DNA from: Chromobacterium sp. ATCC 53434
GTDB taxonomy: Bacteria > Pseudomonadota > Gammaproteobacteria > Burkholderiales > Chromobacteriaceae
Direction of reading: 5' to 3'
Assembly (NCBI RefSeq): GCF_002848345.1
Contig: NZ_CP025429.1
Span: 682,001 to 746,000 of the forward strand
Length of the DNA stretch: 64,000 nucleotides
Under the pieces are notes generated by a model. That model was given only the letters and a program-made list of their open reading frames with translations, was not told the origin of the DNA and made no database searches. Numbering within the stretch: the stretch's first letter is position 1; every line of letters starts with the position of its first letter. Position numbers and translations under genes: made by a program. Of this stretch, positions 27,200-58,719 are shown piece by piece.

Positions 27200-27529
27200 T
27201 CAGCCTTCGGCTTCCAGCACCACGCGGGCGCGCAGGCCCGGGGCGTCGTGCTCGGCGATGGCCAGCAGGCGGTCGATATTGGGGTGGCTGCCAGGCTGGG
27301 CGCGGGCGGCGGCGGTATGCTCGGCGAACAGCTCCAGGCCCTCGCGCGCGGCCTTGCGGTCGATATGGCCGTGGCGCTTGACCAGCGCGTGGTAGACGCG
27401 CAGCGATCCGGCGCTGCCGGGGCGGTTTTCCAGCCGGTGTATCGCCTCGCCTTCGGCGCTGAGCAGCACGATGGCGGCGATGCCGTCGATGGCGGGCAGG
27501 GCGGCCAGCTGTTCCTGGAACGGGGTCAT
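27200..27529 (-). CDS. DUF2322-family protein
   Basis: A 109-residue soluble protein of the DUF2322 type, function unknown. The N-terminal half (LAALPAIDGIAAIVLLSAEG) is followed by a helical segment with HGHIDRKAAREGLELFAEHTA. The ATG at 27529 has AAGGAG 7 nt upstream; a second ATG at 27535 is only one base from it. It is convergent with the dicarboxylate carrier, and its upstream flank carries a dispersed repeat. Confidence 0.75.
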   Translation of the reverse strand: MTPFQEQLAALPAIDGIAAIVLLSAEGEAIHRLENRPGSAGSLRVYHALVKRHGHIDRKAAREGLELFAEHTAAARAQPGSHPNIDRLLAIAEHDAPGLRARVVLEAEG

Positions 27530-27564
27530 GGTCATTCTCCTTGTTATATTGGCGAAGAGGCTTG

Positions 27565-27626
27565 AGAGCCTGCTCACGATCTTGTTGCGGCAGCGGCCAT
27601 GTTAAGCAAGACCTTGAACAGACTCT
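27565..27626. repeat. Dispersed inverted-repeat element, copy 4 (diverged)
   Basis: Starts AGAGCCTGCTCACGATCTTG and ends with the imperfect inverse CAAGACCTTGAACAGACTCT. It shares the outer end and the TTGCGGC core with the copies at 10847 and 13477. It lies upstream of the DUF2322 gene. Confidence 0.6.
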
Positions 27627-27697
27627 GAATAGGATAAGGGCTAAAGATGACAGTTCCAGTGCCCATCTGTCAGTACTGTGACGCCAAGTGTTAAATT

Positions 27698-27745
27698 TTG
27701 TTTCATTTTGGTGCCTTGTCATAATTATTGCACCATTTTGGTGCG
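27698..27745 (+). promoter_or_regulatory. Two NtrC-type enhancer sites
   Basis: TGCACCA-TTT-TGGTGCG (27729-27745) is a near-perfect NtrC dyad. A weaker site with a perfect right half TGGTGC lies at 27698-27714 (half at 27709). The two TGGTGC halves are 30 bp apart, about three helical turns. The same motif appears ahead of glnA and ntrBC in this window. Centres are about 97 and 127 bp upstream of the start expected from the sigma-54 promoter at 27808. Confidence 0.75.
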
Positions 27746-27807
27746 TTTAATGGCGAGGCATGCGTTGAAATGATTGTTTGAAACGGCGTTACAGGCGTTT
27801 TCGGCGC

Positions 27808-27824
27808 TGGCACGCCGTTTGCTT
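27808..27824 (+). promoter_or_regulatory. Sigma-54 promoter with no protein gene downstream
   Basis: TGGCACGCCGTTTGCTT matches the sigma-54 consensus TGGCACG-N4-TTGCT exactly, with GG and GC separated by the required 10 bp. The predicted start is about 27834. It reads rightwards into a region where the next two genes are on the opposite strand. Confidence 0.8.
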
Positions 27825-27833
27825 TATCCGGAT

Positions 27834-27956
27834 CCAGCTAGTGAGCAGGGCCGCAAGGTCCGCTGCGCCGGTCTGCAAAGGGGAGGATGAGAGCGGCAAA
27901 GCCGCCGTTGAACGGGGTTGTCGAAGAGCTAAGCTTCGGCAGCCCCGATTCATTTT
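27834..27956 (+). ncRNA. Candidate nitrogen-regulated small RNA
   Basis: The transcript expected from the sigma-54 promoter would be about 120 nt. It can fold into a 5' hairpin (GCAGGGCC, GCAA loop, GGTC..CTGC), a GCGGC-AAA-GCCGC hairpin near 27893, and a 14-bp terminal stem (CGGGGTTGTCGAAG at 27913-27926 with its partner at 27934-27947, two G-U pairs) followed by ATTCATTTT. An unpaired AAAGGGGAGGATGAG lies at about 27877-27891. A 40-codon ORF could start at the ATG 27887 but abuts its ribosome site and runs through the terminator into the opposite gene, so I favour RNA. Known analogues in concept are NtrC/RpoN-driven sRNAs such as NrsZ of Pseudomonas; no sequence kinship is claimed. Confidence 0.55.
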
Positions 27957-27965
27957 CGGCCGAGC

Positions 27966-28517
27966 TCAGGGCTGCTCGCCGATCAGATAGCGCTGGCTCA
28001 TCAATTTGAAGTGATCGCCGCCCGATTTCTCCAGCAGCTCGAACAGCACCATCTCGCGGCTGACGATGACGGCGCCGGCGGCGCGCATCCGCGCCACCGC
28101 CAGTTCGATGTCGGCGGGTTTGCGGCTGGAAATCGCGTCGGCGACGACGAAGACCTGCTTGCCGGCCGAAAGCAGCTCGATCACGGTCTGCATGACGCAA
28201 ACGTGCGCCTCCATGCCGCAGACGATGATCTGCCGCTTCTGCAGCAGCGCCGGCGGCAGGCAGCCGGCGGCGACGCAGGAGAAGTGCAGCTTGTCCACCA
28301 CATCGGCCTCGGGCGCCGCCTCGCGCAGCGCGGCCAGCGTGCCGCCGAGTCCGCGCGGGTATTGCTCGGAAAACGCGATCGGCAGCCCGTGGTCGCGGGC
28401 CACTCCCACCAGCCAGCGGCTGCGTGCCAGCAGCCCGTCGGCGTCGTGCACCGCCGGCAGCAGCTTGTCCTGGATATCCACCACCAATAGGCCGGCTTCC
28501 GGTCTTTGCATCAGCAT
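27966..28517 (-). CDS. Isochorismatase-family cysteine hydrolase
   Basis: A 183-residue hydrolase of the isochorismatase/nicotinamidase superfamily (YcaC-like group). The catalytic triad is recognisable as Asp in LLVVDIQDKL (about residue 15), Lys in VVDKLHFSC (about 76) and Cys in CGMEAHVCVMQT (about 106). The ATG at 28517 has AGGAG at good spacing. Substrate unknown. Its stop is 10 bp from the hairpin of the facing small-RNA candidate, which would serve both strands. Confidence 0.85.
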   Translation of the reverse strand: MLMQRPEAGLLVVDIQDKLLPAVHDADGLLARSRWLVGVARDHGLPIAFSEQYPRGLGGTLAALREAAPEADVVDKLHFSCVAAGCLPPALLQKRQIIVCGMEAHVCVMQTVIELLSAGKQVFVVADAISSRKPADIELAVARMRAAGAVIVSREMVLFELLEKSGGDHFKLMSQRYLIGEQP

Positions 28518-28580
28518 GATCCGCTCCTGTCGATTCCAGAGCATAGCTTAACCGTAAAGCCGGCTTTCGGCAGCGGCTAA

Positions 28581-54047: not shown

Positions 54048-55463
<1,416 letters not shown>

Positions 55464-57300: not shown

Positions 57301-58719
57301 TTACAGCGAGTAGTACATCGCGAATTCCACCGGGTGGGTGGTCATGCGGGTCAGGTTGACTTCCTGCATCTTCAGTTCGATGTAGGCGTCGATCCATTCA
57401 TTGGAGAACACGCCGCCGCGGGTCAGGAACTCGCGATCCTTGTCCAGCGCGTCCAGCGCCTCGTCCAGGCTGGCGCACACGGTCGGGATCAGCTTGTCTT
57501 CTTCCGGCGGCAGATCGTACAGGTTCTTGTCGGCGGCGTCGCCCGGGTGGATCTTGTTCTGGATGCCGTCCAGGCCGGCCATCAACAGCGCGGAGAAGCA
57601 CAGGTACGGGTTGGCCAGCGGATCCGGGAAACGCGCTTCGATGCGGCGAGCCTTCGGGCTGGCCACGTGCGGGATGCGGATCGAGGCGGAACGGTTCTTC
57701 GCCGAGTAGGCCAGCTTCACCGGCGCTTCGTAGTGCGGCACCAGGCGCTTGTACGAGTTGGTGCCCGGATTGGTGATGGCGTTCAGCGCCTTGGCGTGCT
57801 TGATGATGCCGCCGATGTAGTACAGCGCGGTGTCGGACAGGCCGGCATAGCCGTCGCCGGCGAACAGGTTGACGCCGTCCTTCCAGATCGACTGGTGCAC
57901 GTGCATGCCGGAGCCGTTGTCGCCGACGATCGGTTTCGGCATGAAGGTGGCGGTCTTGCCGTAGCTGTGGGCGACGTTGTGCACGACGTATTTCAGGATC
58001 TGGGTCCAGTCGGCGCGTTGGGTCAGCGTGCTGAAGCGGGTGCCGATCTCGTTCTGGCCGGCGGTCGCCACTTCGTGGTGGTGCACCTCGACCGGCACGC
58101 CCAATTCTTCCAGCAGCAGCACCATCGCGGAGCGGATGTCTTGCGAGGAGTCGACCGGCGGGACCGGGAAGTAGCCGCCCTTGACGCCCGGGCGGTGACC
58201 CATATTGCCGCCCTCGAATTCCTCGGCCGACGCCCAGGCCGCTTCCTCGGCCTTGATCTTGACGAAGCAGCCGGACATGTCGGTGCCCCAGGTGATGCTG
58301 TCGAAGATGAAGAATTCCGGCTCCGGGCCGAAGTAGGCGGTGTCGCCGTGGCCGGAGGCCTTCAGATAGGCTTCGGCGCGCTTGGCGATCGAGCGCGGGT
58401 CGCGGTCGTAGCCCTTGCCGTCGGCCGGGTCGATCACGTCGCAGTGCATGAACACGGTCGGTTCGTCGAAGAAGGGGTCGATGCGGGCGGTGGCCGGATC
58501 GGCCATCAGCAGCATGTCGGATGCCTGGATGCCTTTCCAGCCGGCGATGGAGGAGCCGTCGAAGGCGTGGCCGCGTTCGAACCAGTCGTCGGCGTCTTCC
58601 AGCAGCACGTGGGCCGGGATGGAGACGTGCTGTTCTTTGCCGCGGGTGTCGGTAAAGCGCAGATCGACAAATTTGACGTCGTTTTCTTGGATCAGCTTGA
58701 CTACGTCGGCTACTGCCAT
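57301..58719 (-). CDS. glnA: Glutamine synthetase, type I
   Basis: A 472-residue dodecameric enzyme (E. coli 469) making glutamine from glutamate and ammonia. [39 protein letters not shown] [15 protein letters not shown] and NRSASIRIP line the active site. The adenylylation tyrosine is present in NLYDLPPEE near residue 400, so activity is probably controlled by GlnE. AGGAGATAAACC precedes the ATG. Behind a sigma-54 promoter with two NtrC sites. Confidence 0.98.

Follow-up and report, generated by a model that had tools for sequence, protein, structure and literature searches.

A candidate NtrC/sigma-54-activated small RNA gene conserved across most of the Chromobacteriaceae

To our knowledge, direct control by NtrC and sigma-54 has been described for few small RNAs (sRNAs). 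Useful comparisons include MmgR, which is alphaproteobacterial, and the Qrr RNAs of Vibrio, which are stand-alone sRNAs with sigma-54 promoters and the NtrC-family activator LuxO, in quorum sensing. A title cited in PMC9170634 names MmgR of Sinorhizobium meliloti as an sRNA gene positively regulated by NtrC. Passages in published sources describe NrsZ of Pseudomonas aeruginosa as an sRNA of nitrogen limitation with an NtrB/C- and RpoN-dependent promoter (PMC8395346) that adjoins ntrC (PMC8395346, PMC9731577), and GlnZ of the Enterobacteriaceae as a nitrogen-limitation sRNA that is cut from the glnA 3′ untranslated region by RNase E (PMC9731577). Here, we analysed a stretch of 64,000 nucleotides (hereafter, the window) from the 5.14-Mb, single-contig genome of Chromobacterium sp. 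ATCC 53434 (contig NZ_CP025429.1, positions 682,001 to 746,000), in which an initial annotation had proposed a noncoding RNA gene behind an NtrC/sigma-54 promoter. That proposal was borne out in that the promoter and enhancers are conserved along with the RNA core, the 3′ hairpin covaries and no open reading frame (ORF) is conserved; the locus is likely to be a stand-alone, family-wide gene for a base-pairing sRNA of approximately 120 nt, activated by NtrC and sigma-54.

Compared with these systems, the locus shares with NrsZ a predicted NtrC/RpoN-type promoter ahead of an sRNA; however, this RNA of approximately 120 nt is encoded between DUF2322 and isochorismatase genes, 26 kb away from ntrC. 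The comparison with NrsZ made in the initial annotation therefore held as a concept but not for location (NrsZ lies beside ntrC), and the RNA appears to be analogous to NrsZ in concept only. With GlnZ it would share a place in the nitrogen-limitation response, but it has its own promoter and lies approximately 29 kb from glnA; it is not GlnZ. MmgR, by its description, is likewise an NtrC-regulated sRNA gene, and the Qrr RNAs offer the same combination of stand-alone sRNA, sigma-54 promoter and NtrC-family activator, but with activation by LuxO in quorum sensing. The features expected of an NtrC/sigma-54 sRNA are present, namely a promoter directly 5′ of the RNA and dyads within looping distance (−97 and −127), and the RNA appears to represent a new sRNA family that, by its predicted working principle, belongs among the NtrC/RpoN-dependent sRNAs. 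Searches of Rfam 15 at the gathering score gave no matches in the window or in the loci of eight relatives, and a lax threshold gave two chance-level matches, far below gathering scores. The RNA was not described in the titles and abstracts of the matches listed in a literature search, which came mostly from outside subscription journals.

Promoter, enhancers and spread in the family

The NtrC dyads and sigma-54 promoter at 27699–27823 are confirmed. The near-perfect dyad, weaker dyad and perfect sigma-54 site that had been reported carry 1, 4 and 0 mismatches, respectively (Table 1), and the reported distances from dyad centres to transcription starts agree with ours to within 1 bp (−97 and −127 at the RNA gene, −96 at ntrB, and −137 and −107 at glnA). 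Judged on score alone, the weak dyad is near background. The exact sigma-54 pattern (TGGCACGNNNNTTGCW) occurs six times in the 5.14-Mb genome, and the exact dyad (TGCACCANNNTGGTGCR) occurs in only two places, the RNA locus and the ntrB promoter. Composite sites, defined as a sigma-54 site with 0–1 mismatches plus an upstream dyad with 0–2 mismatches, number three in the window (RNA gene, ntrB and glnA), compared with none in 120 first-order Markov windows. Lone mismatched motifs were at or below chance (dyads at up to 3 mismatches, 4 observed versus 3.9 expected; sigma-54 sites at up to 2 mismatches, 8 observed versus 15.5 expected), so the weight rests on the combination and quality of the motifs. 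No sigma-70-like site was found pointing into the RNA, the single scored site being on the minus strand.

A DNA search recovered the region from 17 of 41 genomes, the window's own genome counted, with a sigma-54 site 55–62 nt 5′ of the core in all 17 loci. A covariance model (R1; 125 positions) built from these 17 sequences (the one in the window and 16 others) matched 46 of the 61 family genomes at E ≤ 0.01, 29 of them outside the model-building set. Matches were strong (E of 1.1 × 10−6 or better) in genera g1 (the genus of the window; 18 of 19 genomes), g7 (10 of 10), g6 (1 of 1) and g26 (1 of 1), and weak (E of 4.6 × 10−6 to 4 × 10−4) in g5 (13 of 13) and g2 (3 of 3). The weak matches were accepted because an isochorismatase gene is adjacent and a sigma-54 promoter lies ahead in 16 of the 16 loci; homology is more secure for the other 30 loci than for these. 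Eight named records, from seven Chromobacterium species and Gulbenkiania mobilis, carry the exact core pattern. Within the fetched stretches, the isochorismatase gene accompanies 40 of the 46 loci and DUF2322 accompanies 31, with at least one of the two at every locus. R1 found no match in g24 (0 of 4 genomes), g4 (0 of 2), g3 (0 of 2), g25 (0 of 6) or the genome G010.

The regulatory sites travel with the RNA. Among the 30 strong homologs (g1, g6, g7 and g26), the sigma-54 site has 0 mismatches in 27 and 1 mismatch in 3, and the best upstream dyad has 0–4 mismatches of 14 in every case, with centres from −84 to −162. The two best dyads are 30–32 bp apart (about three helical turns) in 16 of the 18 genus loci, as in the window; because the second dyad mostly has 4 mismatches, the argument is from its position and not from its score. 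Promoter, enhancers and RNA core are thus conserved together as one unit in the family. The link to NtrC was also considered at the level of whole genomes: the ntrC equivalog model scored over its curated cut-off in 59 of the 61 family genomes, the genome G046, whose assembly is broken, retains the RNA together with a fragment of ntrC covering 240 of 463 positions, and G010 (3.5 Mb), the sole genus member without the RNA, has no ntrC ortholog over the cut-off. This joint absence, a single case, is suggestive only.

At the 16 g2 and g5 loci, a sigma-54 site with 0–2 mismatches is always present, the predicted start lies 172–203 nt 5′ of the motif for the second hairpin (SL2; Table 1), and the best dyad (1–2 mismatches) stands downstream of the promoter, at +87 to +100, inside the transcribed stretch in all 16; the best upstream dyad match within 300 bp has 4–6 mismatches. 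No reverse-strand sigma-54 site that might own these dyads was found at 0–1 mismatches, and one was found at 2 mismatches (L071). The simplest reading would be that NtrC activates these promoters from inside the transcribed stretch. In both genera (L071, L062 and other g5 loci; L056–L058 of g2), the predicted sigma-54 transcript is extended at its 5′ end. In g5, this additional part contains a conserved CTGCTCYWYGGAGCGACAGGTGTTGTT (one locus starts CGGCTC) and, ahead of the core, an internal hairpin resembling a terminator (CCCGAATTGG...CCAATTCGGG) with a T-rich tail, so the product could be a pair of tandem RNAs or a single long RNA.

Outside the family, R1 gave two weak matches in 399 genomes of the order and one in 369 genomes of the class, all in or overlapping long open frames and lacking a sigma-54 site of 0–1 mismatches; these large searches used stricter filters, by which weak matches are lost and distant relatives may be missed. 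There was no credible match among the 369 class genomes, although the presence of Pseudomonas among them, like that of NrsZ in Rfam, was not established. Five candidate loci (L053, L054, L055, L067 and L138) were rejected as homologs: every one of them overlaps a long open frame, and the closest sigma-54 match in the 260 nt upstream differs at 4, 4, 3, 3 and 2 positions, respectively, with 4–5 mismatches in the best dyads. L053 (E of 9 × 10−5) contains a core-like string (TCTGCAAAGGGC...AGCGGCGAAGCCGCC), but within a frame of 720 codons. Second R1 matches in the genomes G007 and G016 were not counted, as they fell on the opposite strand over the same place.

Fold and covariation of the RNA

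Conservation within the RNA is concentrated in the core, with a mean column identity across 27 sequences of 0.87, compared with 0.43 on its 5′ side and 0.56 on its 3′ side. The RNA strand of 27832–27965 is predicted to fold at −61.9 kcal/mol (z of −3.3; 0 of 200 shuffles as stable), compared with a z of −1.1 for the opposite strand. In the consensus, the base of the 5′ hairpin (SL1) pairs CUGGYG with CGCCAG, the fourth pair being absent in 11 of 28 rows, and SL2 has the form GCGGC-NNA-GCCGC, with 5 of 5 pairs constant in 28 distinct sequences. Between the two lie an unpaired CUGCAAAGGRGA and a few variable bases. In the minimum-energy folds of several Chromobacterium RNAs, the 3′ part of this unpaired stretch pairs with the UUCAUUUUC tail, so exposure of the putative seed is uncertain there. 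The 14-bp stem-loop noted in the initial annotation was located at 27913–27947 (SL3), followed by a weak T tail.

The covariation check that had been proposed for related genomes was positive for SL3. On an unfitted MAFFT alignment (A1), 7 pairs changed on both sides (a number reached by none of 500 shuffles) and 93.9% of cells could pair, compared with 30–52% with a slid partner, the tested structure having been largely derived from A1 itself. On a model-fitted alignment of 28 distinct rows, which had been fitted to the structure before the count, 10 pairs changed on both sides, with 97.4% pairing and again 0 of 500 shuffles as high. Within SL3, double-sided change affected 10 of the 12 modelled pairs. 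The possibility that SL3 is a dispersed repeat was rejected: its exact Chromobacterium form is present in 10 of the 19 genus genomes, in each only at the RNA gene.

Table 1. Coordinates of the candidate sRNA gene, its regulatory sites and surrounding features in the window
Feature	Positions	Strand	Remarks
Small RNA gene	27834..27957	+	predicted start to end of terminator tail; R1 matches 27834–27959
5′ hairpin SL1	27837..27872	+	base conserved, apical stem variable
Conserved core GCGCCRGTCTGCAAAGGRGA....AGAGCGGCnnAGCCGCC	27865..27906	+	mean column identity 0.87 (27 sequences)
Unpaired purine-rich stretch CUGCAAAGGGGAGGAUGAGA	27873..27892	+	likely seed; unpaired in consensus fold
Hairpin SL2 GCGGC-AAA-GCCGC	27893..27905	+	stem invariant
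3′ hairpin SL3 and tail ATTCATTTTC	27913..27957	+	14-bp stem; probable intrinsic terminator
Strong NtrC dyad TGCACCATTTTGGTGCG	27729..27745	+	centre −97; 1/14 mismatch to TGCACCANNNTGGTGCA
Weak NtrC dyad TGTTTCATTTTGGTGCC	27699..27715	+	centre −127; 4/14 mismatches to dyad consensus
Sigma-54 (−24/−12) promoter TGGCACGCCGTTTGCT	27808..27823	+	0 mismatches; predicted start approximately 27834
DUF2322 ORF (longest frame), upstream neighbour	27200..27577	-	Pfam PF10084, E 3 × 10−38
Isochorismatase-fold hydrolase ORF, downstream convergent neighbour	27966..28544	-	Pfam PF00857, E 4 × 10−26
Conserved block TAGGATAAGGGCTAAAGATGACAGTTC	27630..27656		between DUF2322 and NtrC dyads
ntrC	54048..55463
glnA (glutamine synthetase frame)	57301..58719

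Proposed mode of action and its alternatives

We infer induction by NtrC and nitrogen limitation, the two transcript ends and a base-pairing mode of action. When nitrogen is short, phosphorylated NtrC would bind the dyads and, by DNA looping, activate sigma-54 RNA polymerase at the promoter; transcription would start at approximately 27834 and end at the SL3 hairpin and its tail. The RNA would then present the unpaired, purine-rich CUGCAAAGGRGA between two hairpins, and this seed, which retains RRRGGRG in all 12 variants compared, would most likely pair with pyrimidine-rich stretches of target mRNAs, changing their translation or stability.

Several observations weigh against this model. Within the RNA, double-sided changes are confined to SL3, the base of SL1 varies on one side only, and SL2, which never varies, says nothing either way about pairing. 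Five of the nine g7 loci with a readable 3′ end (L040, L042, L044, L045 and L046) keep SL3 without a T run, which makes termination there doubtful, and another factor may be needed. G010 is also without the neighbouring isochorismatase gene, so its loss of the RNA may belong to a larger deletion. In addition, NtrC is present in 14 genomes of the four genera without the RNA (g24, g4, g3 and g25), so NtrC control does not generally depend on the RNA. All 14 have the isochorismatase gene, in whose flanks neither a dyad of the pattern nor a sigma-54 site was found (approximately 560 bp of flank only at L098), and no core-like string occurred in any of the 14 hydrolase loci. A bare SL2 pattern appears in three of these loci, 380–971 bp from the hydrolase gene, and the L110 locus has a string that departs from the sigma-54 consensus at a single position but lacks the −24 GG. 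As DUF2322 or rplI adjoins the hydrolase in 8 of the 14 genomes, the same place is empty in these 8; the remaining 6 have a different neighbourhood at the hydrolase gene.

Target prediction, also suggested in the initial annotation, weighs on the same side, as pattern searches gave no target above the reversed control. A 13-nt anti-seed (TCYCCTTTGCAGR) occurred at 16 places in the 19 genus genomes, 12 of which are the RNA gene itself, leaving 4 scattered sites compared with 5 for the reversed control; 2 of the 4 are the reverse complement of a Shine–Dalgarno (SD)-like stretch of an opposite-strand gene. An 18-nt wobble pattern with one mismatch allowed occurred at 27 places in four genomes, 4 of which are the RNA gene, leaving 23 compared with 22 for the reversed control. 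Among the 15 of these 23 places that were inspected, one match was common to all four genomes, before rimP in a promoter-like stretch that is not clearly a leader, and one further match, common to two genomes, is the reverse complement of an SD-like stretch. The sequence before rimP (GGTTTTCTTTTTTGCGGRAATAGGTTACAAT; gene recognized by Pfam RimP domains) is identical or nearly so in L128, L121, L131 and L133, strongly conserved and promoter-like.

Other explanations of the seed and its promoter were weighed against base pairing with target mRNAs. Under one of them, a seed imitating an SD sequence would act on the translation of many structured or pyrimidine-rich leaders and, in the two genera with the enhancer moved into the transcribed stretch, the dyads would double as RNA hairpins and bound NtrC could both activate the promoter and obstruct the polymerase, producing a self-limiting pulse; we consider this unlikely. 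SD mimicry as such, in which AAAGGRGA would pair with the 16S anti-SD or with anti-SD-like strands of structured leaders and so tune translation broadly under nitrogen shortage, seems to us quite unlikely. It accommodates the fact that RRRGGRG is retained by each of the 12 variants, purines being exchanged opposite U of the anti-SD (giving G–U pairs), and the predicted duplex energies of −8.3 to −11.5 kcal/mol. However, shuffled seeds equal these energies in 4–29% of cases, so composition alone accounts for much of the duplex energy, and mimicry leaves the conserved GUCUGC beside the seed unexplained.

It is very unlikely that the RNA is a sponge for a CsrA/RsmA-type protein that binds via GGA. 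Known sponges of this kind carry many ANGGA motifs in hairpin loops. All 12 variants do have GGA in the unpaired stretch, but only one or two copies of it, in a single-stranded joint, with none in the loops of the folds read; ANGGA occurs in 6 of the 12 seed variants, so the several loop-borne motifs by which such sponges are defined were not found. The suggestion in the initial annotation that CsrA-type proteins bind via AGGA fared no better, as several relatives lack AGGA.

The dyads and sigma-54 site might instead serve no RNA, acting as a decoy or as an enhancer of the divergent DUF2322 gene, with the 120 nt as a conserved spacer. The dyads do sit between two genes, and the conserved block listed in Table 1 stands nearer DUF2322, but the promoter is directed toward the RNA, conservation is much higher in the core than around it, the RNA strand folds much better than the opposite strand, and all 13 g5 loci keep promoter and core without DUF2322 in the fetched stretch; we regard this explanation as highly improbable.

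The RNA has no conserved ORF: a conserved short frame, which the initial annotation had named as grounds for abandoning an RNA gene, was sought in the 27 aligned sequences, and no column reached 60% for a start codon. That the promoter drives a very short protein, with AAAGGGGAGG-ATG as ribosome-binding site and start, is scarcely credible: a frame of 40 amino acids does exist from 27887 in the window and the purine stretch upstream of its ATG resembles an SD sequence, but that ATG is present in only 8 of the 27 aligned homologs and directly abuts the SD-like stretch, the frame is closed by a stop after 14 codons (L029) or 23 codons (L023) and overruns the RNA in the other six, and SL3, which the frame would overlap, shows compensatory pair changes and loops of varied length.

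Neighbouring sequence and significance

The RNA gene is intergenic, on the plus strand, and is flanked by two minus-strand genes, for DUF2322 and the isochorismatase-fold hydrolase, in agreement with the earlier remark that the next genes lie on the opposite strand. The conserved block between DUF2322 and the NtrC dyads recurs in many Chromobacterium loci; sigma-70 scoring found no site at this block, which is possibly a promoter or operator of DUF2322.

For the base-pairing sRNA that we favour, the core is nearly fixed while its neighbours, hairpin tops and even enhancer positions vary, a pattern that allows direct experiments on seed and targets, and genera whose enhancers lie within the transcribed stretch provide natural material for studies of enhancer placement. 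Conserved across most of the family, in Chromobacterium, Gulbenkiania and relatives, the RNA is a probable post-transcriptional arm of nitrogen control in these bacteria.
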